Shown here: in pieces, positions 814 through 47,566 of the stretch | How positions within the stretch are numbered: the stretch's first letter is position 1 | Layout of the letters: each line of letters begins with the position of its first letter | Assembly (NCBI GenBank): GCA_016777225.1 | Contig: JADHRW010000002.1 | Location: 257,284 to 321,283, forward strand | DNA from: Candidatus Thalassarchaeum sp. | GTDB lineage: Archaea; Thermoplasmatota; Poseidoniia; Poseidoniales; Thalassarchaeaceae | Direction: 5' to 3' | Length of the DNA stretch: 64,000 nucleotides | The notes under the pieces: model-generated | The model's input: only the letters and a program-made list of their open reading frames with translations | The model's database searches: none | What the model was told of the DNA's origin: nothing | Position numbers and translations under genes: made by a program

Positions 814-3477
814 CTAAGAGGTAGAAGGCTGAAGATCTTCATCTTTCCACCATTCAGGCCTCTCGCCAAGATCAGTATCTGGATCTTCTTCTTCCCATAT
901 CTCGCCATCTTTAATTCGTCCTTCTAGAACTCTGTCGATCTCATCTTCATCTATAAAAATCAACATTATTACTGTAGCCATAGTTAAGACAGCCCCTAAG
1001 TAAATCGCCGTAGAGTAATCAAATATTGCAATCATTCTTCCAGTCATGGTGTAAGCAAATACTCCTGATAAATTAAATAATGACATGTATGCAGTAAATT
1101 GAGTCCCACCAACTTTACTCCACGTAAGCCTCATGGTCAATGATATAACACAAATCCAAGCAATTCCAGCGATAAAAGCCTGAAGAATAAGGAAAGTTGT
1201 CATTATGGTAGTATTGGTCCACAAAGGCTCTAGGAATGCTAGACAGGCATTTGCGAAAGCAAGTGCTAAAAAGAACACCATTGCAACTCTTCTTGTTCCA
1301 AAGCGATCACCCAAAAATCCACCAATTATCTGACCAAACATTGCTCCAAATACAACTATTCCACCAACTATACCATTATACTTTTGTTGTGACCAACCGG
1401 CACCATTAATGAAGATATCAAATGTAATTGGGACCACAAAGTAATACAAATCAGCCAACAGACAAAGTCCAATTAATAAGAAGGCAGATCTGACAGAAAA
1501 TGCTTTGACAAGATAAAACGAAGTTCTGGCTACGGTGTTCTTAGTCCCTACAGGCAATACTGAAAATGGATTGGGGACTTGTGGTAAAGTAGGGCCTTCA
1601 TTACCCAAGTATTTCATAATAAAATTAAATGAGAATAGTAATAGCGCTATGGACAAACAGACATAACTAATTGGATTAGTAATCTTCCTTATATCGGCAC
1701 CAAACGACCAATCAATAGAAAATACATCAATAGCAAATCCAGTAAACCATATTGAAAGACCTATTATTGTAAAGAATGCTATGATGGAAATACGCGCTTC
1801 GGAAACGCTGTATCCTACATTCTTAGCAGTCATGAACTTTTCCTCATCAATCCAAGGAGTTTCTGTTTCATCATCATCTATGGCTTCTTCATTAGATTCT
1901 GAATCTATAAGGATTGCATCTACTTTTGACCATGGGAATAACTTAATTCCTGGTTTTTCTCTCAAAGTAAGGGGTATCCACATAATTAACAATAGTAGAG
2001 CTAATTGTGCTATAATAACTCCTGAAATACCAATTACACCAATGAGAACCCCTAATCCGGCACCTCCAATAATTATTCCAAGCCTCTTGGCAGCGAACAT
2101 GAACCCATTTACTTTAGCCACCTCATCTGGTTGAAGAATCTCTACAGCTAGGGCGTCTGTAGCAACATCTTGTAGAGATGCAAATATATTATGAACAAAT
2201 AATACTCTAGTTACTAGATCTACTTGCTCATTAAGATCGTCAACAAGAATCAAACTTCCTAGTGTCAATGCCATTCCAGCTTGAGCGAAAAGCACCCACT
2301 GTCTTCGAGGTCCATATTTCTCAATAAATATAGCATCTACAACAGGGCCCCAAATCCACTTAAATGTCCAAGGAAGAGCTACTGTTGCGAATAATATTGC
2401 AATATCTTCTACAGGGGTTCCGTTGTCAATTAGATAAGCAGCAAATGTAACACTGGCAAATCCCCAAGGAAGTCCTTGGGCGAAGTACATCAAACAAAGT
2501 GTTACTACTCTACGTGTTTTATTTTCAGTTAATGCTCCACCCTTTCTCCATTCTTTTGAGGCTTTTTTAGTACCAGAGATTGCTTCAGGACCCCAGATTG
2601 TTGGATTAATTTTATTCAAACTGTTTGAAGTCCAATTACCCATATCAAATGGTTCCGAAGATTCTTGTTTTGACATCCAATCTTCACGATATGCAACCCA
2701 TCCCAAAAGAGCCATTACTGCAAGGAATGGAATAATAAATAAAATTGGACCAAAAGATGTTTTACCCAAATTAGCTTCTGAATCTAATAATGAAACATAG
2801 ATTGGGAACTCAGCATAAACATCGCCAGGAGAACCTCCCTCATCGGAATAATACATCCTAAAACTACCAGAGCAATCTTGATCAATCGGTGCGCCGGGGA
2901 AAGGGGGTTCACATAGAGGACCTCCTTGGGCAGGAACCGAATAAGAAACTGTAATTGTTGTAGAGGTATCTTTCGACCAACTCTGGAAAGAATCACTTAC
3001 AACAATATCCCAGTTAGTAGTGAAATCATTACCATTGTTAACTGAGTTAGCAGGCTCTGTATGCTGAGAAATCTCTTCATCACCTCTGAGGAGTGTCAGT
3101 GTTAAATCACATTCTGCTCCACCACAATTTCCAGATTCGATATTAAATTTCATCCTAACAGATATTGTTTCATTAAGTTCAAGAATGAAGCCTTCAGAAA
3201 ATCCTGTTTGTAGTTCACAAGAGAAATCTACTACTACATCTTGACCTTCAGGGAATATTATCTCTCCATAACCTTCTGATGCAGAGCCTTGGGATAGATT
3301 ATCAAAATTATTCCAGCAATCCTCTAAATTCTCAGAACCCCAGAAATACATGTATGGATCATCATTGGTAGGATAATTCTCAACTGAATCAGATTGAGCA
3401 GTAACGGGCATAGACAAATAACTGAATGTTAATAGTAACACTACGCCAATAGTTAGACTTCGACGTGTGGATTGCAT
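814..3477 (-). CDS. MFS transporter (AmpG/acetyl-CoA transporter-like) with N-terminal secreted ectodomain
   Basis: The 887-residue protein has an unusual layout. Residues 1-27 are a signal peptide ending near VTAQS. Residues 28 to about 240 form an extracytoplasmic, Cys-containing beta-rich domain. A single helix follows at about 245-263, and then a 12-helix MFS body that starts near YFAQGLPWGFASVTF at about residue 330. That YFxQGLP opening is typical of the AmpG/SLC33-like branch, which moves muropeptides or acetyl-CoA in other organisms. An acidic cytoplasmic loop at about 530-550 splits the two six-helix bundles, and the tail is acidic. Family members are usually 400-550 residues, so the ectodomain is an addition. 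The substrate cannot be inferred. The gene looks monocistronic. Confidence 0.8.
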   Translation of the reverse strand: MQSTRRSLTIGVVLLLTFSYLSMPVTAQSDSVENYPTNDDPYMYFWGSENLEDCWNNFDNLSQGSASEGYGEIIFPEGQDVVVDFSCELQTGFSEGFILELNETISVRMKFNIESGNCGGAECDLTLTLLRGDEEISQHTEPANSVNNGNDFTTNWDIVVSDSFQSWSKDTSTTITVSYSVPAQGGPLCEPPFPGAPIDQDCSGSFRMYYSDEGGSPGDVYAEFPIYVSLLDSEANLGKTSFGPILFIIPFLAVMALLGWVAYREDWMSKQESSEPFDMGNWTSNSLNKINPTIWGPEAISGTKKASKEWRKGGALTENKTRRVVTLCLMYFAQGLPWGFASVTFAAYLIDNGTPVEDIAILFATVALPWTFKWIWGPVVDAIFIEKYGPRRQWVLFAQAGMALTLGSLILVDDLNEQVDLVTRVLFVHNIFASLQDVATDALAVEILQPDEVAKVNGFMFAAKRLGIIIGGAGLGVLIGVIGISGVIIAQLALLLLIMWIPLTLREKPGIKLFPWSKVDAILIDSESNEEAIDDDETETPWIDEEKFMTAKNVGYSVSEARISIIAFFTIIGLSIWFTGFAIDVFSIDWSFGADIRKITNPISYVCLSIALLLFSFNFIMKYLGNEGPTLPQVPNPFSVLPVGTKNTVARTSFYLVKAFSVRSAFLLIGLCLLADLYYFVVPITFDIFINGAGWSQQKYNGIVGGIVVFGAMFGQIIGGFLGDRFGTRRVAMVFFLALAFANACLAFLEPLWTNTTIMTTFLILQAFIAGIAWICVISLTMRLTWSKVGGTQFTAYMSLFNLSGVFAYTMTGRMIAIFDYSTAIYLGAVLTMATVIMLIFIDEDEIDRVLEGRIKDGEIWEEEDPDTDLGERPEWWKDEDLQPSTS

Positions 3478-3530
3478 AAGTTGTGGGATGATTGGTGACG
3501 TTTGAGTGTTTACCCGATAGGTGTGATAAA

Positions 3531-4409
3531 TTATTTGTCAGAAACTATGCGCATTCCTTGCTCCTCATAATCCCAATCAATAATTTCCCAACCTTCTTTT
3601 TCTAAATTCTCAATAACACTCTTTCTAGAAACAGGCGAACAAAGTAAACCTACAGTACCTCCTGCACCAGCACCTAATGCTTTCCAAGCAATTACAGACT
3701 TAGATTCAACTAATGGATTAATTATTGAATGGAAAGGTTCGTGTAATGAAGGATCCATCAAATCTACACCCTCACAGCTATCTCTCAGAGACTCAACAAC
3801 CAACTCTCTTCTATCTCTTTGAATCCCATCAGACATTTTCCTTGCAGCAGCTCTAATTTTATGTAATCCATTTATGACATCTTCATCGCCGGAAGCATAT
3901 CTTTCCCATATCGAGGTATGTAATTCACCAGAATTATGCTCAATTTTAGAATCTGCAATTATCAAATGCTTTTTCAACCAATTTTTTGATGATTTCATGG
4001 GTTCAAAAGGAAGAATCTCGACACTGTCACCAATAAACATTAGATGGTTAAAACCACCATGTGCAGAGGCCCATTGATCTTGGCGGCCGCCTTTATTCTC
4101 TAATATTGATTCAAATTGAAAAGCCATTTCTGCAATTTTCTCTGGAGATTTATTATGTCCTAATATAGTCGCAATAAGGCCTACATTTAATGCACCACTA
4201 GTACCCAAACCAGAACCACTTGGTACCTCACTTGAATATTCTACTTTTATCCTACCAGATTCATCTTTTTCCATCGTAGCATGGATGTATTTATTTATTG
4301 TAAAGTTAACCACTTCTCCACCAAAATCAGTACAATATGGATTGACATCAGTCCATCCCCCTGCTAGATCTACACGGACTGGAACTATGACTTCGAAGCG
4401 TTCGACCAT
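3531..4409 (-). CDS. GHMP-family sugar kinase (HddA/fucokinase-like)
   Basis: At 292 residues this is a normal length for a small-molecule GHMP kinase. The N-terminus carries RVDLAGGWTDVNPY, the substrate-binding start of the D-glycero-D-manno-heptose 7-phosphate kinase/L-fucose kinase subgroup. The ATP-binding motif 2, PSGSGLGTSGAL, lies at about 64-75. The GGRQDQWASAHGG segment matches the sugar-kinase acidic loop, and GAGAGGTVGLL near residue 247 is motif 3. It likely phosphorylates a sugar or sugar phosphate, perhaps for nucleotide-sugar synthesis. It is divergent from the riboflavin genes across an 86-bp gap. I cannot choose between heptose-7-phosphate and fucose or galactose as substrate. 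Confidence 0.85.
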   Translation of the reverse strand: MVERFEVIVPVRVDLAGGWTDVNPYCTDFGGEVVNFTINKYIHATMEKDESGRIKVEYSSEVPSGSGLGTSGALNVGLIATILGHNKSPEKIAEMAFQFESILENKGGRQDQWASAHGGFNHLMFIGDSVEILPFEPMKSSKNWLKKHLIIADSKIEHNSGELHTSIWERYASGDEDVINGLHKIRAAARKMSDGIQRDRRELVVESLRDSCEGVDLMDPSLHEPFHSIINPLVESKSVIAWKALGAGAGGTVGLLCSPVSRKSVIENLEKEGWEIIDWDYEEQGMRIVSDK

Positions 4410-9154: not shown

Positions 9155-12034
9155 ATGACTATAGCGCGACAGGGCATTTGGCAGTGCCCTGATTGTAATA
9201 ATCATGAAGTTTGGAAGACTAGAGATGAGAGCACAAACCAGATTGACAGAAAATGCACTAATTGCAATAAAAGAGTGAGAATGACACTAGATCGCTCAGA
9301 TTCAGGGAAAGGTAGGAAAAGAGGATTTCGGATATGGGAGAGAGATTTGAGTATCGATTTCGCAGAAATCATAGAGGAGGCAAAGAGGAGGAATTACAAT
9401 CAATCTAATGAATCGGAATACGTTGAAATCACAGCACCTTCTGAAAAAAAACCTAGTCAAGAAGAACTTTCACCGATTTGGGGAGCTAATTGGTCTCCGA
9501 AAAAACCATTGAGATTCACTAAAAAGATTGACGAATTAAACGTGCGTAAAGAAATTTTACGTTTCGTAACTGAAAGACATGATGGGTATTTGGAATTTAT
9601 AGCAAAAGAATGGAATAAACAGAAACCACCACTTAATTTTACAGGCAATACATATCATGAGTTCTCAATAAGATTCTGTAGAGAACTTTCTAAATCATTG
9701 AAAGAGAGAATATGGACGCCTGAACTAGCGATAATAGGCAGAGATGAAGTAATCCCTAGAAGAAAATCAGACTTGTTTTTAGAAAGAAGGAATATTCGTT
9801 TTTTAAGAGATATTTCATTGTGCCTAAGAAGAATAGCCCACTCATCAAGCGCTGATTTAGATATGCATTTACTATGGCAAAGGTGGATGATTAGGACTAG
9901 AGCAATTGATGAACACTTGAAAGATCTTTTCAGTAATGGAATTAGCACCCCTGATGGGAAGAAATTCGGAGGTAAAGGATTTAGATCAACTTGGCAAGAA
10001 GGAGTAGTTGGTTGTGCCACACCACTTACAAGAGCAATTGACCTCCAACCTGATCAAAAGTATCGAGCAGATATAATCGCACCGATGATTAGAGATGTAG
10101 GGCTAGCTCTTGCTGTAGGTCAAACTCCTTTAGAGATATTTGCCGCTCAAATGGGGAAGTCAGGATCGTACATGGATGGAGGGAATATTGACTCAGGAGG
10201 TAGAGACTTGCATATTGGAAATTGGGAAAAGGGAGTTCTTCCACCAACGGCACCTCTACCGATAGCAAGTGCAACCGCCACTGGAGTTGCTTTAGCCGCA
10301 AATTTGTTAGAAATTGAAAGATTCCATCTGGCACCCGTAGGAGAAGGAACTAGTAGTAATGGAGAGTTTTGGGAGGCTATGAATTTAGCAGGAGCAAGAG
10401 GATTGCCAATAGCATTTATGATTCAAAATAATCAAATCGCCTTAGACACCTTCACAGTGGGGCAATCAGGAGCTGAAACCTTTGGAGATAAAGGGTATGC
10501 AATGGGCATTCCTTCATGGTCTATAGATGGATCAGACCCTTTACAATTCCATGCATCTACAGCAACTTCTAGAGAATATGCATTAGACGGAGGAGGTGCG
10601 ACCTTGATACATGTAGAAACAATGAGAGGATGTGGACATGCACATCACCACGATGATCTATATCTTGGTTCAGTAACGGGGAACCCCCCCGGATATGTAG
10701 GTAGAGATTTATTGAAATATTGGGCCGAAAAAGATCCTTTGCCAAATCATAGAGAATATTGTATATCCTTAGGAGCGAGTGAAAAGCAACTATTAGCCAT
10801 AGAAAAGGAAGAGCAGTATTATGTCGACAGTGCAAGGAATGAAATGGAAAAAATGCCTTGGCCAGAGGGATATACAGTAACCAAGGGTATTACATCAAAA
10901 CTTGATGCAGAATCTCATTCACAACAATATGACAGATTTGAGAAAGAGACTAGAGATATCACCCCAGGGCCACTTAAGGATGGAGAATTATCAATACAGT
11001 TTTCTGATGCTTCGAATTCTTCAACATATAGTAGAGCTATTCAGAATGCGATGGTTGCTTTAGCAGAGAAATACGGTGAAAAAATAGTATTCATGGGAGA
11101 AGATATGGAAGTAGCAGGTGCTTTTGGAATGAATATTCCTCTAAAGGCAAAAGGACATTCTGATAAATTATTAGATATGCCTCTCTCAGAGTCGATAATA
11201 ATTCATTCAGCGACAGGAGCTGCTCTCGGAGGCATGAGGCCAATGGCAGAAATACAGTTTGGAGGATTCGCCGCACTGGCAATGAATGCCTTGGTGAATA
11301 ATGCTGCACAATTAAGATGGAGATGGGGAGCAGAAGTCCCCCTAACAGTTAGGATACCTCTCGGTGCGAAAATAAGAAGTGGGCCGTTTCATGCAAACAT
11401 GATTGAATCATGGTTTATGAACGATCCAGGGCTAACGATAGTATTCCCGAGTAATCCTCAAGATGCATACGACTTACTCATAGAATCACATGAAATGAAT
11501 GACCCAGTGGTTTTCCTTGAGCACTTGGGATTATATGGTTTAGGTGGTGGCAAGACTGGTTGGGGCGATTCGATTAATCAAGTGATTGATACAGAATCAG
11601 TCAAGAAGAGATTAGAAAATAATATATCATCTATCGGTCAAGCGAAAATAATCAGAGGAGGAAGTGACTTGACAATTATAACATGGGGTGCAATGGTACA
11701 TGTTGCCTTAAAAACTGCTGAAGAATTAGCAAAAGAAGATATTGAAATAGAGATAGTAGATTTGCGTACAATATTACCATTTGATTCAAGTACTTGTGTA
11801 GAATCAATTATGAGAACAAAGAAAATGATAGTACTCCAAGAGTCGCAATATACAGGAGGATTAGGACACACCGTTAGTAGCAGGATACTAGAAGAAACTT
11901 TTTGGGACATGGAATCTCCACCCGTAGTTATAGGAGCACTCGATACACCAGTTCCATTTTCACCAACATTGGAAGATCATACAATACCATCCGTAGATCT
12001 AGTATCAAGGCATGTTAGAAGAATGTGTAAATAA
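9155..12034 (+). CDS. Fused 2-oxoacid dehydrogenase E1 (alpha-beta in one chain) with N-terminal zinc ribbon
   Basis: The thiamin-diphosphate E1 component decarboxylates pyruvate or branched-chain 2-oxoacids in the 2-oxoacid dehydrogenase complex. The 959-residue chain has a zinc-ribbon-like start (C11, C14, C34, C37). A basic linker of about 160 residues follows. The E1-alpha domain, about 230-600, has the ThDP motif GEGTSSNGEFW...QNNQ and an HAHHHDD segment. The E1-beta domain, about 625-959, has FMGEDMEVAGAFG and GGMRPMAEIQFGGF. E1-alpha and beta are normally separate genes of about 330-400 residues each. No E2 or E3 gene is nearby. Start ATG 9155. The substrate (pyruvate or branched-chain acid) is uncertain. 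Confidence 0.9.
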   Translation: MTIARQGIWQCPDCNNHEVWKTRDESTNQIDRKCTNCNKRVRMTLDRSDSGKGRKRGFRIWERDLSIDFAEIIEEAKRRNYNQSNESEYVEITAPSEKKPSQEELSPIWGANWSPKKPLRFTKKIDELNVRKEILRFVTERHDGYLEFIAKEWNKQKPPLNFTGNTYHEFSIRFCRELSKSLKERIWTPELAIIGRDEVIPRRKSDLFLERRNIRFLRDISLCLRRIAHSSSADLDMHLLWQRWMIRTRAIDEHLKDLFSNGISTPDGKKFGGKGFRSTWQEGVVGCATPLTRAIDLQPDQKYRADIIAPMIRDVGLALAVGQTPLEIFAAQMGKSGSYMDGGNIDSGGRDLHIGNWEKGVLPPTAPLPIASATATGVALAANLLEIERFHLAPVGEGTSSNGEFWEAMNLAGARGLPIAFMIQNNQIALDTFTVGQSGAETFGDKGYAMGIPSWSIDGSDPLQFHASTATSREYALDGGGATLIHVETMRGCGHAHHHDDLYLGSVTGNPPGYVGRDLLKYWAEKDPLPNHREYCISLGASEKQLLAIEKEEQYYVDSARNEMEKMPWPEGYTVTKGITSKLDAESHSQQYDRFEKETRDITPGPLKDGELSIQFSDASNSSTYSRAIQNAMVALAEKYGEKIVFMGEDMEVAGAFGMNIPLKAKGHSDKLLDMPLSESIIIHSATGAALGGMRPMAEIQFGGFAALAMNALVNNAAQLRWRWGAEVPLTVRIPLGAKIRSGPFHANMIESWFMNDPGLTIVFPSNPQDAYDLLIESHEMNDPVVFLEHLGLYGLGGGKTGWGDSINQVIDTESVKKRLENNISSIGQAKIIRGGSDLTIITWGAMVHVALKTAEELAKEDIEIEIVDLRTILPFDSSTCVESIMRTKKMIVLQESQYTGGLGHTVSSRILEETFWDMESPPVVIGALDTPVPFSPTLEDHTIPSVDLVSRHVRRMCK

Positions 12035-41541: not shown

Positions 41542-42444
41542 TCATTTCTTAATCATGCTTGCAGGTAAAATTACATGGAACCAAGAAGGTTTTGGCATAT
41601 CTCCTTCTTCTGTAAAAAATGAACGAGCAAATATAGAAATCATATCTATTAATAATACTACTATGAAAATAATAATTAAATATGCAATTACTTTATCATA
41701 TTGTAAAAACTTAAGGTATAAATTGATGTAATATCCAATACCTCCTGCCCCTACAATACCTATTACAGTACCATGTCTAAAATTATATTCAAACATGAAA
41801 ATTGCCTGAGAAATTAAATCATTTGCAGATTCAGGAATAACTACTTGAAACGCTGTTTCAAATCTAGAAAGCCCCATGGCTTCAGCAGCATAAAGTGGAG
41901 TTTTATTCATACCTTCTATCGCTTCATACTGAAGTTTACCTAAATATCCGATTGTATAAACAGTCATTGCAAGGACACCAGACAAAGGACCAAAACCCAC
42001 CAATATTACGAAAAATATTGCCCATATAATGCTCGGCAGACTTCTAAATGCTGCTAGTATAAACCTAGAACTGTACGACAACCACCAAGGATTAAGATTA
42101 CGTGCTGCAAGTAGAGAAATAGGTAGCGATAATATCATGCCAAAAACAGTTGAAACAAATGCTATCTTAAGTGTTTCAAGTAAACCTATCCAAGCAGTTG
42201 AGCAGGTGAAATCAATAAGTGGATAGGCGGTACAAATTGGGTAAGCTTGTGGTTCTATAACACTCCAATCGGGAGGCCATAGAGATTCTCTAATAAAAAC
42301 AAAAAGGTTGTCAATACTTCCGGACAATCTTCCCCAATCATCAACCATTCCATTGAAAACGACAATAGAAGAGATAAATATTAAAAATGGAGTAGCTTTT
42401 ATCAAGAAATTACCTCTAATCGATAAAATCTCATTGAATTTCAT
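41542..42444 (-). CDS. PhnE-type ABC permease, probable iron-import partner of the transferrin-like lipoprotein
   Basis: The 300-residue integral permease has about six helices and the BPD_transp_1 core. PhnE-like features are LPISLLAARNLNP, the FRSLPSIIWAIFFVILVGFGP stretch, and the cytoplasmic EAA loop region YEAIEGMNKTPLYAAEAMGLSRFE with VVIPES, then FRHGTVIGIVGAGGIGYYI. These are normally annotated as phosphonate permeases. Here the solute-binding protein is transferrin-like and the promoter carries an iron-box-like palindrome, so I infer an iron substrate. The start overlaps the ATPase stop by four bases. Phosphonate transport remains the alternative. Confidence 0.85.
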   Translation of the reverse strand: MKFNEILSIRGNFLIKATPFLIFISSIVVFNGMVDDWGRLSGSIDNLFVFIRESLWPPDWSVIEPQAYPICTAYPLIDFTCSTAWIGLLETLKIAFVSTVFGMILSLPISLLAARNLNPWWLSYSSRFILAAFRSLPSIIWAIFFVILVGFGPLSGVLAMTVYTIGYLGKLQYEAIEGMNKTPLYAAEAMGLSRFETAFQVVIPESANDLISQAIFMFEYNFRHGTVIGIVGAGGIGYYINLYLKFLQYDKVIAYLIIIFIVVLLIDMISIFARSFFTEEGDMPKPSWFHVILPASMIKK

Positions 42445-43178
42445 ATTTTAACCTCCATCGCAGTGGCCTCTGTAATGAAAGGGTTTACACGTCCATCATC
42501 AATTACTAATAAACGATCAGCCATTGACTTCGCTCGGGATACGTCATGTTCAACTACAAGTAGCGCGGCTCCACTTTGACGTACATATTGAGTAACTGCT
42601 GTCAATACCATATCCATAGTATCTTCATCTAATTCACTTAGAAATTCATCAGCCATTATCAAAGAAGGTCGTTGAGCAAGAGTTCTAGCAGTAGCAACTC
42701 TTCTTTGTTGACCGCCAGAAAGTCTCCTTATTGGTTCTCTTAATTTATCTGAAAGACCCATTGAATTAATAGCCTCAGAAGCATATTTCTTAGCCAAAGA
42801 AGAAGGTAGAATAGACCACAAAGACTTGTTGTGACCCGCATTGGCGCCTATCATGACATTATGCATAACACTAGTATGGCGAATCAACCCAAGACGCTGA
42901 GGCACATATCCTAGGATTCCTTTAGAAGGTTTAGATGGACTAACTGCACCACAAACCTCTACAGAACCTGAAATAGGTCGAACTAAACCCGCAATTGTTC
43001 TCAAAAGAGTTGTTTTTCCAACTCCAGAAGGACCTGCAATTGCGACTATTTCGCCGGGAAAAATTTCTAGATTTGGGATCTTGACTAGTGGCTCCGTTTT
43101 TTTATAGCCGATTTCAACATCTAATAGCCTCACAATTGGATTTCTATAAACTTCAATTTCTTTCGAATCTCCAGTCAT
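42441..43178 (-). CDS. PhnC-type ABC ATPase, probable iron-import partner
   Basis: The 245-residue ATPase has Walker A GPSGVGKTTLLRTIAGLVRP, a Q loop in LGYVPQRLGLIRHTSVMHNVMIG, signature LSGGQQRRVATARTLAQRPS, Walker B LIMADEFLSELD and an H-loop VVEHDVSRA. The RHTSVMHNVMIG block and the length are characteristic of the PhnC branch. It is the first gene of a two-gene unit with the permease, 145 bp downstream of the lipoprotein gene. It carries its own palindromic operator at 43206-43223 and a hairpin between it and the lipoprotein gene, so it may be expressed at a different level. Confidence 0.9.
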   Translation of the reverse strand: MTGDSKEIEVYRNPIVRLLDVEIGYKKTEPLVKIPNLEIFPGEIVAIAGPSGVGKTTLLRTIAGLVRPISGSVEVCGAVSPSKPSKGILGYVPQRLGLIRHTSVMHNVMIGANAGHNKSLWSILPSSLAKKYASEAINSMGLSDKLREPIRRLSGGQQRRVATARTLAQRPSLIMADEFLSELDEDTMDMVLTAVTQYVRQSGAALLVVEHDVSRAKSMADRLLVIDDGRVNPFITEATAMEVKI

Positions 43179-43205: not shown

Positions 43206-43223
43206 GTTTAGGGGCGGCTAAAC
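43206..43223. promoter_or_regulatory. DtxR/IdeR-like palindromic operator upstream of ABC ATPase
   Basis: GTTTAGGGGCGGCTAAAC is an 18-bp dyad 28-45 bp before the ATPase start. Over the inner 16 bp it matches the site at 45499-45516 at 12 positions, sharing TTTAGG and CTAAA arms. The pattern resembles the TTAGG...CCTAA arms of DtxR-family iron boxes (known consensus). The regulator itself is not in the window. Confidence 0.55.
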
Positions 43224-43234
43224 CCTTATTTGGT

Positions 43235-43313
43235 ATTGCCGGGAGAAAATTCAAATTTTGAATTTGAATTATGATGCCGTTAACATGAATGATGAATACT
43301 CTCTCCCGGCAAT
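43235..43313. terminator. Long inverted repeat between lipoprotein and ABC genes (terminator/stability hairpin)
   Basis: Two perfect 12-bp arms, ATTGCCGGGAGA (43235-43246) and TCTCCCGGCAAT (43302-43313), enclose 55 nt. That interior contains a second palindrome, AAATTCAAA / TTTGAATTT (43247-43265). It begins 10 nt after the stop of the lipoprotein gene on the minus strand. It could end or stabilise the abundant binding-protein transcript relative to the transporter genes. No target-site duplication was seen, which argues against a small transposon. Confidence 0.5.
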
Positions 43314-43322
43314 TTAATTATG

Positions 43323-45434
43323 TTAATCTTCGATATCAAACTTATCGCTATAGTAAGAAGATATACCTGGGATATTACTGATTAATTCAGAATAACTCCC
43401 CATATGCTCTTGAGATGTAACTCTTACTAACCCTGGAGTATTGAGTACATTTTCTAAAATCTCAGAACCACAAGTATTCTTTGGAGAATCTTCATCGATT
43501 ACATGTACGGAAATGTCGTAACAACCAGTATATGTGTTCCCCATAACAGTATAATTCTCAACATAGGTTTCATAATTTAATGTCATTAAAGCATTAAGAA
43601 TCGCAGTCCTAGTTTGAACATCTAAAGACTCGGGATTATACATTATCGGATGACTAGGAGCTTGTCCAAACGTAGGCAGTGCGACATATTGATCTCTCTC
43701 TAAACACCAATCTTCATTGTCTTCAGAGACCTCATTACCACAATACGAATCAATGGTGCTATCTTTAGCAAAGGCAACATCCCCTGTACCATCTGATAAA
43801 CATTTCACAGCCCCTGAATAACTATAATATGGAGTCCCTGAATCAGGAATAGATGCATCCGAATTAAAGAATCCATAGATAGTATTTCTTAATGACTCGA
43901 TATCATCGCTATCTCCGATTACAGGGGCGTATTCATTAGCAATTAGATAACCCATTGGCAAAAGCATACCTGCTGATTTTAACCAGCCCGTATGACATGA
44001 AGTTTTACCCTCTAAAAGAGTAAATGGATCAGTTTCCGGATCATCATCTAGGTGGGCTAATGCGATTTCACTATCTGCCTTCACCCAAGCGTGGGCATTG
44101 TAGTATGTACGGCCATCTGATTTCTGATCGGCTGCCATGGCAGCTAACCCATATTCTTTCCAACCTACCCATGCTGCCCCGCCATCCATGAATGCAATAT
44201 CTGCATTACCAAATCTCAATGCTTCGATAATAGCTCCTTCTGAATCTACGCTATAAAGTTCAACTGTTACCCCTAAAACTTCCTCTAGGTAATCTGCTAA
44301 AATTTGTGGATTTTCATCAATATTGTCATAATCCGCCTTAATTTCGTAAGCAATTCTGACTTTCTCTATAGTGATTGAGACAGTTCCATTAATAGTGAAC
44401 TTATCATTATAATAAGCAGATATCCCTGGTATATTGGAGATTAATGATGAATAACTACTCAAATGATCTTCGGCATTCGTTGCGACAATTCCAGGTGTAT
44501 TAAGGACATTGTTCAATATGCTACTAGCCTCTGAATCAGCACTCATTTCTACAAGTACTTCTGTAATTAGATCTGCGAGATTTGAGTCCATTAATTCAGG
44601 ATTATACATTACAGGATGACTAGGGGATTTACCAAATGCAGGGAGAGCAACATATTGATCTCTGGAAAGACACCAATCGCTATTTTCTTGTAATACTTCA
44701 TTGTTACAATAAGTATCCACAGTATTATCTTTAGCGAAAGCTACATCTCCAGTTCCATCGGATAAACATTTAATTGCTCCTTCATAACCATAATATGGAG
44801 TTCCTGAATCTGGTATCGAAGCATTCTCATTAAAATATTCAAAAATTGTATTTCTAATTGTTTCTACGTCATTAGGGTCACCAACAACATTAGCATAACC
44901 ATGTCCAATTAGAAAACCCATAGGGAGTAACATTCCAGCTGATTTAAGCCATCCAGTATGGCAAGAAGTCTTACCAGAAAGTAGTGCAAATGGGTCAGTA
45001 TATGGATCATCATCTAGGTGTGCTGATGCCATTTCACTGTCTGCTCTAACCCATGCATGAGCATTATAGTAAGTACGGCCATCGCTTTTCTGATCAGCAC
45101 CTAATGCACCTAAATCATACTGTTGCCATCCGACCCATGCAGCACCGCCATCCATTATTCCAATATCTGCATTACCGAATCTCAGGGCCTCAATCATTGC
45201 CCCTTCAGAGTCAACACTATATAGCGAAACATCATAATTTAATTTCTCAGTAAGATAATCTGCTAACTGCTGAGGATTTTCATCAATATTGTCATAATCG
45301 GATTGGATTTCATAGGCAATTATAAGGCTACCCAATTTCCCACCTTTTTCATCATTATTATCTAGGCATCCAGCAAGAGCAGTTGTTAAGAAAAGCATTG
45401 AAATTAAGTATGTCATCATTTTTTTGTTATTCAT
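43323..45434 (-). CDS. Bilobal transferrin-like iron-binding lipoprotein (solute-binding protein)
   Basis: The 703-residue lipoprotein (lipobox ALAGC23) holds two tandem homologous lobes, about 38-345 and 360-700. Each lobe carries transferrin signatures. The lobe-one ligands are D95 (MDGG), Y122/Y123 (TYYNAHAW), Y217 (YYGYEGA) and H273 (PSHP). The lobe-two ligands are D417, Y444/Y445, Y539 and H595. The anion-site motif CHTGWLKSAG places T160 and K164, then T482 and K486, where vertebrate transferrins have Thr and Arg. KCLSDGTGDVAFAKD follows Y217 and Y539. C158 and C223 (and C480 and C545) match a conserved transferrin disulfide. Default annotation would be PhnD-like; transferrins share that fold. 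AAGGTGA at 45440-45446 supports ATG 45434. It likely binds ferric iron with carbonate outside the cell for the ABC importer. Confidence 0.85.
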   Translation of the reverse strand: MNNKKMMTYLISMLFLTTALAGCLDNNDEKGGKLGSLIIAYEIQSDYDNIDENPQQLADYLTEKLNYDVSLYSVDSEGAMIEALRFGNADIGIMDGGAAWVGWQQYDLGALGADQKSDGRTYYNAHAWVRADSEMASAHLDDDPYTDPFALLSGKTSCHTGWLKSAGMLLPMGFLIGHGYANVVGDPNDVETIRNTIFEYFNENASIPDSGTPYYGYEGAIKCLSDGTGDVAFAKDNTVDTYCNNEVLQENSDWCLSRDQYVALPAFGKSPSHPVMYNPELMDSNLADLITEVLVEMSADSEASSILNNVLNTPGIVATNAEDHLSSYSSLISNIPGISAYYNDKFTINGTVSITIEKVRIAYEIKADYDNIDENPQILADYLEEVLGVTVELYSVDSEGAIIEALRFGNADIAFMDGGAAWVGWKEYGLAAMAADQKSDGRTYYNAHAWVKADSEIALAHLDDDPETDPFTLLEGKTSCHTGWLKSAGMLLPMGYLIANEYAPVIGDSDDIESLRNTIYGFFNSDASIPDSGTPYYSYSGAVKCLSDGTGDVAFAKDSTIDSYCGNEVSEDNEDWCLERDQYVALPTFGQAPSHPIMYNPESLDVQTRTAILNALMTLNYETYVENYTVMGNTYTGCYDISVHVIDEDSPKNTCGSEILENVLNTPGLVRVTSQEHMGSYSELISNIPGISSYYSDKFDIED

Positions 45435-45498
45435 ATATATCACCTTATTAAAATTTTTAGGGTCTCATAAAACTTCCGAGAGAGGGGGGTTATATTAA

Positions 45499-45516
45499 AT
45501 TTAGGTCAGCCTAAAT
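45499..45516. promoter_or_regulatory. DtxR/IdeR-like palindromic operator in divergent promoter
   Basis: ATTTAGGTCAGCCTAAAT is a perfect-arm dyad in the 134-bp region between the transferrin-like gene (minus) and the secreted protein gene (plus). The core AGGTCAGCCTAA is close to the known DtxR box AGGTTAGCCTAA. AT-rich TATA-like stretches flank both sides (TATATTAAA and AAATATAAAA), so a bound repressor could block both promoters. Confidence 0.6.
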
Positions 45517-45568: not shown

Positions 45569-47566
45569 GTGAAGACTACGTTCTCTAAGCAGGTTTTTTC
45601 ATTAATCATAATTTTAATGATAATTTTAATGACATATTCGCTACCTGAAAATAACACTACAATAGAAGAAGAAAACTCTCCGAAGTATCAATTAGGAGGA
45701 GGGGGTGGAAGCATTGAAGAAAGGTGTAGTTCAATTACTTTCGAAGACATCCTTCCTTACACACATGCACATTTTGACATTGTAATTGATGATGATTGGA
45801 ATTCCGCAGCAGTAGAAGCGCGTGCTTGGGTAAATGGAAGCAGTGTTGACGGATTGAGAGAATTGCTAGATACATATCTAGAAGAATTATACCCAAGTGG
45901 AGGAGATGGTTGGATTTCAACTGACGAAAAGTCAGCTGTTGAAGCGGTCGCATCGGAATGTATTGAATATGCATTGACAAGGATTGGTATGAGAGAAGCA
46001 GCACCGCACAGAGGAGGAGTTGGGTTAGATTGGAAGAATGCTACTTGGCAAGATGGAGTCATTATTGAAGAATGGAATTTAGTCCCGTCTAATCATGCAG
46101 ATATACGAGACTGTACAGCTATGGGTTCGAGTAATGATTGCGTAGAAGTACCAGTGTATCCAAACTCTGAAAGAGATTGTAACACACTTATCCAGACTAT
46201 TGAAGGAATTGATGAATGTAGATTAGAATTATGGATGAATGCGACGATGGTGATACCCAATATAGAGCAAGGAGATCAATTTACGCTTGCTTTCAATACA
46301 TCTAACATGACCAATGCAGTCCTAGATTTTACATTCCCAAATAATCCAGACTTAAGACTGGATATGTGGGAAGAATGTGAAGGGAGAGATGTTGAATTTG
46401 AGCCAACTACTCATGAAGATGCCCCTCTGAGAGGGACGTGTATAGGAGACGGTTCGTCCACTTATACATTTGAAAACATAGTAAATGAAGAAGTGAAGTA
46501 TACCTTAATTCCGCACAGAAGTATGGAAATGTGGCCAAGTGGAGAAGATATATTTGCAGACTTTACGACAGCACCTATACCTATTGATGAACCACCTACT
46601 TGGACTGAAATTGCTCCTAAAAATCAAGCCTGGTTCCCATCGCTAGAAAGTGGAGAAAAAATATGGGCAGACTGGAATAGCGTCTCTTCATGGTTTACTG
46701 ATGAAAATCCTATTTCACAATTACAAATTAACTGCGAAGGGACTGATTCACTGAATATTTATCAATCTACAGATAAATCATTCTGGGGGACCATAGAAGA
46801 AGCTGAGGTTGGTGAAGTTACATGCGAGGCAATAGATAATTCGGGACAAAGTTCAGGGAATAGAACGTGGCATCTAGGAGTGCCATTTTCAGTATCAACC
46901 TCAAATAATATTCTTTTGAACCCACACCCAATACTAATTGAATTGAATGAAGGATGGCCTGAATTAACTTTAGAATATGGATTTACACAGAGTGAGAATT
47001 TTAATTCTGGAACGATGGATACTGTATCTCTAACTTCAAGTGGAATTATGATGGTAGATTCATTAGGAATGATCCCTGGAAATGTCAATTTATGGGTCAG
47101 AACTTATGCAGAAAATGTATACTCGATAGATAAATTGTTTTATCTAGACATAATAAAAGAAAGTTCCCCACCTCTGATTAGTCTTTCTGAGTATGGCTGG
47201 GAAGTTGATACATGGAAAGCGCAGGGGCAATTTAGTGACCCTGATGGAGAAGAAGTTTTATTCTCATTATCTATAAACAATTTATCTGCAGGAAGTATAT
47301 CAGTTTCTGGCAATTCTTGGAGTACACCAATAATTAATTTCGGATTATGGGAAGAAGGCATCCATGAAGTGAAAATTATTGGTTGCGATATTTCTATGAA
47401 ATGTAACGATGTAATATTAATGGTCAATAATACCCATTTATATGAAAGTGATGAAATATCTCTCCCGCCAAGTCAAGATGATAACGGGTCATTACCAGGT
47501 CCAGGTATTGTTTTAACAATTTTATCTTTAACTATCGGTCTCATATACTCAACCCGACGCGATTGA
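45569..47566 (+). CDS. Large secreted surface protein sharing the iron-box promoter, function unknown
   Basis: The 665-residue protein starts at GTG 45569. It has a signal segment (about 8-24) and a low-complexity GGGGGS linker. A Cys-containing N-terminal domain follows, with several cysteines between about 180 and 280. The later Ig-like region has DNSGQSSGNRTW and a cadherin-like QGQFSDPDGEEVLFSLSINN stretch. A terminal helix is preceded by SLPGPGI and followed by YSTRRD. No enzymatic motif is seen. It is divergent from the transferrin-like gene with a single shared operator, so it may belong to the same metal-responsive set, for example as a surface receptor or binding scaffold (inference). 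Confidence 0.75.
   Translation: MKTTFSKQVFSLIIILMIILMTYSLPENNTTIEEENSPKYQLGGGGGSIEERCSSITFEDILPYTHAHFDIVIDDDWNSAAVEARAWVNGSSVDGLRELLDTYLEELYPSGGDGWISTDEKSAVEAVASECIEYALTRIGMREAAPHRGGVGLDWKNATWQDGVIIEEWNLVPSNHADIRDCTAMGSSNDCVEVPVYPNSERDCNTLIQTIEGIDECRLELWMNATMVIPNIEQGDQFTLAFNTSNMTNAVLDFTFPNNPDLRLDMWEECEGRDVEFEPTTHEDAPLRGTCIGDGSSTYTFENIVNEEVKYTLIPHRSMEMWPSGEDIFADFTTAPIPIDEPPTWTEIAPKNQAWFPSLESGEKIWADWNSVSSWFTDENPISQLQINCEGTDSLNIYQSTDKSFWGTIEEAEVGEVTCEAIDNSGQSSGNRTWHLGVPFSVSTSNNILLNPHPILIELNEGWPELTLEYGFTQSENFNSGTMDTVSLTSSGIMMVDSLGMIPGNVNLWVRTYAENVYSIDKLFYLDIIKESSPPLISLSEYGWEVDTWKAQGQFSDPDGEEVLFSLSINNLSAGSISVSGNSWSTPIINFGLWEEGIHEVKIIGCDISMKCNDVILMVNNTHLYESDEISLPPSQDDNGSLPGPGIVLTILSLTIGLIYSTRRD

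Follow-up and report, generated by a model that had tools for sequence, protein, structure and literature searches.

Discussion of transferrins mostly concerns proteins of animals and algae, for which an ancestor among prokaryotic binding proteins is presumed. No archaeal or prokaryotic transferrin is named in the open-licence PMC literature searched, and the words iron, phosphonate and transferrin are absent from PMC6461757 and PMC9723583. The animal transferrins and lactoferrins (PF00405) possess two lobes, Asp/Tyr/Tyr/His iron ligands, a Thr anchor and the SCHTG and KCL cysteines, all of which recur in the substrate-binding protein of an ABC transporter locus in the window, the whole 64-kb stretch of DNA that was analysed. 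In contrast to the animal proteins, it is an archaeal membrane lipoprotein of an ABC importer, with Lys in place of the carbonate Arg. The FEA1/ISIP2a phytotransferrins (PF07692) constitute a separate family; in relatives of the window genome, an FEA1-domain lipoprotein adjoins the transferrin-like protein and shares its operators. The PhnCDE and PtxABC importers have the permease family, ATPase type and binding-protein fold found here, whereas at this locus the PhnC and PhnD cut-offs are missed and the operators are of the iron type.

The target of the iron repressor IdeR is redefined as TTAGGNNNNCCTAA, a half-site that takes up one dimer, in the passages of PMC8464063 on that box. The motif described here has the identical repeat and 4-bp spacer and likewise lies upstream of iron genes; compared with the box as given in those passages, it is one T/A pair longer on each side. 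The original prediction for this locus concerned a palindrome and its regulator, and overlooked the nature of the regulated protein, which is the larger result. To judge from the sequence, the palindrome is probably an operator of the DtxR/IdeR family, with both units of the locus repressed by iron and the ABC importer serving Fe(III).

Putative operators and promoters of the locus

The gene for the two-lobed transferrin-like substrate-binding lipoprotein (43323–45443, minus strand) is accompanied on the same strand by genes for a PhnC-like ABC ATPase (42441–43178) and a PhnE-like ABC permease (41542–42444). The predicted palindrome, GTTTAGGGGCGGCTAAAC, is present at 43206–43223 as a putative operator of the ATPase–permease unit. 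It has six perfect pairs and is a weaker form of the motif, one half-site of the core TTAGG....CCTAA reading GCTAA instead of CCTAA. The distal putative operator of the binding-protein gene, ATTTAGGTCAGCCTAAAT, is located at 45499–45516. Its distance of 2293 bp and the 12 of 16 inner positions common to both sites agree with the original prediction; the arms, claimed there to be alike, differ slightly, with seven perfect pairs here and six at the ATPase-side site. Both predicted sites are thus real, and their count fell short by one: the locus has a third, degenerate site, TTTAGGGTCTCATAAA (45456–45471), which was overlooked. It forms the proximal putative operator of the binding-protein gene and is separated from the distal site by 44 bp. 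The common core of the three sites, TTTAGGNNNNCCTAAA, includes the published IdeR/DtxR half-site. The TTAGG-N4-CCTAA repeat that distinguishes DtxR/IdeR operators is exact at 45500–45515 and has one mismatch at 43207–43222 and at 45456–45471.

Directly upstream of the ATPase-side palindrome, the TATA-box-like sequence CAATACCAAATA (43227–43238, minus strand), with the consensus caAtacCaaATaagGG over 27 loci, probably serves the ATPase unit as its core promoter. Another TATA-like sequence, TTTAATATAA, is found beside the distal operator (45490–45499, minus strand), and its role is suggested by a similar block that follows this operator in the consensus of 51 loci.

The region was compared among 80 relative loci, the best 80 of 241, some of them such close relatives that counts are not independent; the closest named loci belong to Marine group II (MGII)/Ca. 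Poseidoniales and to Thalassarchaeaceae, and by this relatedness the window genome is that of an MGII archaeon. At least one site with up to two mismatches occurs in 27 of 30 binding-protein loci, most being exact or one-mismatch sites near the gene. Of the 74 loci with sufficient flanking sequence, 52 have a site with at most one mismatch in the 300 bp upstream of the binding-protein match. The gap that leads to the following reading frame, presumed to be the ATPase, contains such a site in 25 of 73 loci; a Walker motif is seen in 48 of these 73 frames, and the remaining 25 frames could be incorrect choices or different genes. The reversed control pattern has no match at either place in the same loci. 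The predicted placement in front of both transcription units is conserved in relatives. Three of the 27 ATPase-side sites (and three of the 25) are doubtful, because in L137–L139 the site coincides with the presumed ATPase start or follows it, and no TATA-like block accompanies it. In 24 of the 27 loci, a conserved CAATACCAWATA-like block precedes the site (by eye), which would give the operator a TATA-like element on one side and the expected start on the other. Many loci without an upstream site have a site pair approximately 1.5–2 kb further up, before an FEA1 gene where checked. Of 57 pairs of upstream neighbours, 52 are 32–35, 43–45 or 54 bp apart, and the other five are separated by 15 bp (n = 4) or 22 bp (n = 1); the usual spacings form steps of about one helical turn. 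The IdeR box described in the relevant passages of PMC8464063 differs in comprising two overlapping half-sites within 19 bp.

In the mechanism that we infer, the ATPase-side palindrome would separate the TATA-like box from the point where the ATPase–permease transcript probably starts, and the other two operators would belong to the binding-protein promoter. In iron-replete cells, the Fe(II)-loaded repressor would occupy all three operators and block both promoters, and in iron-poor cells both units would be expressed. The lipoprotein would then capture Fe(III) outside the membrane, probably with carbonate as in transferrin, and pass it to the PhnE-like permease for import by permease and ATPase. 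Separate operators would give the ATPase unit a promoter of its own, apart from that of the binding protein.

Between the stop codon of the binding-protein gene and the ATPase operator, a hairpin (43235–43313, minus strand) has a 12-bp perfect stem (z −6.2), and it possibly forms the 3′ end of the first transcript, the binding-protein mRNA, or stabilises it. In locus L072, a stem of 12 bp encloses a loop likewise of 55 nt, though the letters differ, and L073 has a stem of 10 bp. No hairpin stem of 6 bp or more was found in L069 or L070, and the hairpin is therefore not a general feature. The palindrome itself was considered as a terminator and rejected, having only 6-bp arms, no T run behind it and the stronger, separate hairpin beside it.

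It is unlikely, though it deserves to be weighed, that only the two upstream sites work, the one at 43206 decaying and the ATPase being read through from the binding-protein promoter. One half-site is altered at 43206 and also in the two nearest loci, L069 and L070, where the site at the orthologous place reads TTTAGCCTCCCCTAAA; these two loci have perfect copies at the place of the 45456–45471 site (spacing of 43), and other loci have full-consensus versions of the ATPase-side site. Moreover, the gap before the ATPase is mostly devoid of a site in Poseidoniaceae-type loci, making the ATPase operator a lineage-restricted element. Against read-through, the adjacent TATA-like block is strongly conserved together with the ATPase-side site, and the strong hairpin stands between the genes. 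IdeR also accepts a change from C to T at position 1 of each repeat, according to the passages on its target in PMC8464063, although the change in one repeat of the 43206–43223 site is to G, which was untried there.

Candidate regulator and genes behind the motif

Two DtxR-family proteins are encoded in the genome, both on contig C7 and outside the window, and no DtxR gene was found within the 64-kb window. The protein encoded at G000:C7:88106–88954 has Met78, Cys171, Glu174 and His175 at the places of DtxR Met10, Cys102, Glu105 and His106. By eye, and by what we take to be the DtxR numbering, it seems to be without the usual ancillary-site histidines. The second protein (C7:36840–37271) consists of three domains, the third of FeoA type, and carries Asp8 and a Glu as metal-site residues. 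Met and Cys at the primary metal site of DtxR favour Fe(II), and Asp/Asn and Glu mark MntR, in the passages of PMC10317159 on this site; by that rule, the first regulator has a predicted Fe-type set and the other a predicted Mn-type set. The iron-type protein is most likely the repressor of the locus, as far as these residues can indicate. Its relatives are found in 58 of 60 genomes, the two misses being 60–70% complete. No site within one mismatch that would suggest autoregulation of the two DtxR genes was found in L002 or L003. Archaeal DtxR regulons were reportedly described by Leyn and Rodionov in 2015, and that work may describe the motif.

In 60 relatives, there are 108 exact sites, compared with 26 for the reversed pattern. 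The 18 regions examined, of at least 18 such exact-site regions in the relatives, are the listed exact sites away from the covered binding-protein and FEA1 matches, with two binding-protein/FEA1 regions in addition. In 17 of the 18, among the sites listed, an iron, Fe–S, haem or metal-transport gene adjoins the site; the remaining one, L056, has no recognisable metal gene at it. Assignments from Pfam or coordinates comprise a ferrochelatase (L052), a flavodoxin (L053), a ferredoxin (L060), an FTR1 iron permease (L057), FEA1 (L049, L054, L055 and L063), an FecB-type binding protein with an FecCD permease (L058), an M28 peptidase–ZIP metal transporter fusion behind the site (L064:99–2363, minus strand) and an NifU-domain gene opposite an SufC-like ATPase (L051). 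Sequence likeness alone assigns SufC-like genes (L050, L065 and L066), a ferredoxin (L062) and peptidase–ZIP genes (L059, L061 and the second site of L058). The motif marks a predicted iron regulon in the relatives, where the place upstream of iron genes, a trait of DtxR/IdeR operators, is conserved. In the window genome, the remaining five places within one mismatch of the core (L035–L038 and L041) lie in or beside genes with no evident iron link, so that the regulon is seen in the relatives and not here. The motif could be used for tracking the iron stress of uncultured archaea in metatranscriptomes.

The suggestion that one DtxR-type regulator governs both units is well supported: it agrees with the match to the IdeR half-site, as set out in the passages of PMC8464063 on it, with the conservation of the sites and with the predicted iron regulon of the relatives. 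Uptake of manganese or another metal, regulated by the Mn-type protein, would be compatible with the existence of this three-domain regulator and its Asp and Glu metal-site residues. Such uptake is quite improbable: in relatives, the motif is accompanied by iron, Fe–S and haem genes and flavodoxin, the usual iron-starvation set, and the transferrin ligand match of the binding protein points to Fe(III).

Other genes adjoin the operators. A divergent 665-aa predicted extracellular protein with no Pfam match is encoded beside the same operators in the window (45569–47566, plus strand), as well as in L063 and L067. In L067, a lipoprotein with an FEA1 domain (PF07692, phytotransferrin family; 2552–4201, plus strand) is encoded behind the same operators, as is the case in L063, L068 and L055. 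Matches to FEA1 number 17, in 16 of the 60 relatives, and for 11 of them a transferrin-like gene is no more than 2.5 kb away; the window genome has no match to PF07692, and one FEA1 protein searched against PDB sequences gave nothing at 0.01. L067 also encodes a single-lobe transferrin-like binding protein (9717–10787, minus strand; Transferrin 2.3e-17). This gene has an exact operator to itself and runs convergently to the two-lobe operon.

Transferrin homologue and its ABC transporter

The binding protein comprises 706 residues from a GTG codon, with ATG 45434 as the likely start, and is a membrane lipoprotein on account of its lipobox-like G25 C26. It is nominally PhnD-like and matches both the Phosphonate-bd (1.7e-43) and Transferrin (PF00405; 5.6e-40, 138 bits versus a cut-off of 20.3) models of Pfam. 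Of PDB sequences, 95 pass 0.01, and the best 60 of the 95 are all transferrins, headed by bovine lactoferrin (5e-27, single-sequence search). An AlphaFold2 model (mean pLDDT of 82.6 and pTM of 0.72) was searched with Foldseek, and the 50 matches listed are all transferrins. A second structural aligner places the phosphite-binding protein PtxB (Z-score of 23.9) level with an ovotransferrin lobe (Z-score of 23.3), and the fold alone therefore leaves the choice between the two undecided. The orientation of the lobes in the model is unsupported, because whole-protein superpositions have a large r.m.s.d.

The iron-ligand positions are occupied by D98, Y126, Y220 and H276 in lobe 1 and by D420, Y448, Y542 and H598 in lobe 2. 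Of the carbonate-holding residues, Thr is retained (T163 and T485) and Arg is replaced by Lys (K167 and K489), and the protein is therefore described as a PF00405 homologue and not claimed as a canonical transferrin. The corresponding lactoferrin residues are, we assume, Asp60, Tyr92, Tyr192, His253, Thr117 and Arg121. Among 24 aligned proteins, 15 have the full Asp, Tyr, Tyr, His, Thr and Lys set in lobe 1 and 7 have it in lobe 2, and the SCHTG and KCL cysteines are invariant in the binding proteins. In many relatives (L011, L013–L019 and others) the lobe 2 iron ligands have decayed though the lobe is kept, and there are some losses in lobe 1. Sequence identity between the two lobes is 71% (215/304), so their doubling, or a later homogenisation, probably took place independently of that in animals.

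A phosphonate or phosphite importer of the PhnCDE type, with operators under some form of phosphorus control, is a very improbable reading of the locus. The permease passes the PhnE equivalog cut-off (TIGR01097, 225.8 bits versus 216.7), and the Phosphonate-bd matches and PtxB as a top structural match are in keeping with such an importer. Passages of PMC6336850 on the MGII core genome include phosphonate transport, by which the present genes are presumably meant. However, the ATPase (TIGR02315, 139.2 bits versus 266.1) and the binding protein (PhnD, 68 bits versus 261.1) widely miss their equivalog cut-offs. Neither the C–P lyase protein PhnJ nor a phosphonatase above cut-off was detected in any of the 60 relative genomes, the partners of the motif are iron genes, and transferrin ligands are present in both lobes. 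Scavenging of iron is the more likely role of the ‘phosphonate transporter’, because its switches are of the iron-repressor type and its capture protein is a relative of transferrin.

The PF00405 model matches 112 of 389 Thermoplasmatota genomes, of which 106 belong to the order of the window genome, and none of 14 controls. A wider reading is tentative and has somewhat less than an even chance of being right: the MGII archaea would hold a prokaryotic branch of transferrins, DtxR-repressed Fe(III)–carbonate ABC binding proteins often sharing an operon with an FEA1 homologue, that either stands near the source of the eukaryotic proteins or results from ancient exchange with marine eukaryotes, and their core ‘phosphonate’ transporter would be an iron system. 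If this is true, a two-lobed homologue in an iron-repressed archaeal ABC operon offers a concrete place to seek the ancestor or the exchange. A phosphonate-labelled transporter of abundant surface-ocean archaea would likewise be reassigned to iron uptake, which bears on marine competition for iron.

Three genomes outside the class (G101, G123 and G177), all of Thermoplasmatota, also match the Transferrin model. L105, L115 and L147, titled Rhodobacteraceae, Rhodobiaceae and Flavobacteriaceae, carry the archaeal locus and are probably binning errors. No copy was confirmed in the viral contigs scanned with the binding protein.

Frequency of the motif in window and genome

The original prediction held that two such sites in one 4-kb locus, each in front of a transcription unit, are unlikely to arise by chance. 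In its own form, GTTTAG-N6-CTAAAC with up to two mismatches, the pattern supports this weakly, with six matches in the window versus 2.88 expected, a count equalled or exceeded in 9 of 100 shuffles of the window. The claim stands on the core and on conservation: at up to one mismatch, the core has three matches in the window, all at the locus, versus 0.21 expected, and three were reached by 1 of 100 shuffles. With up to two mismatches, the core has 104 matches in the genome versus 165 for the reversed control and is not enriched; with up to one, the genome (1.48 Mb) has only eight places, one exact (the site at 45500) and seven with one mismatch, so that at this stringency the motif is not frequent at random coding positions. 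Three of the eight fall in the transporter locus, and a post hoc Poisson estimate for three sites in 2.3 kb is 3e-7. An origin of the palindromes by chance, in line with the two-mismatch count in the window, has next to no probability and is rejected, given the genome count, the core count in the window and the conservation of the motif in relatives with zero matches of the reversed control.
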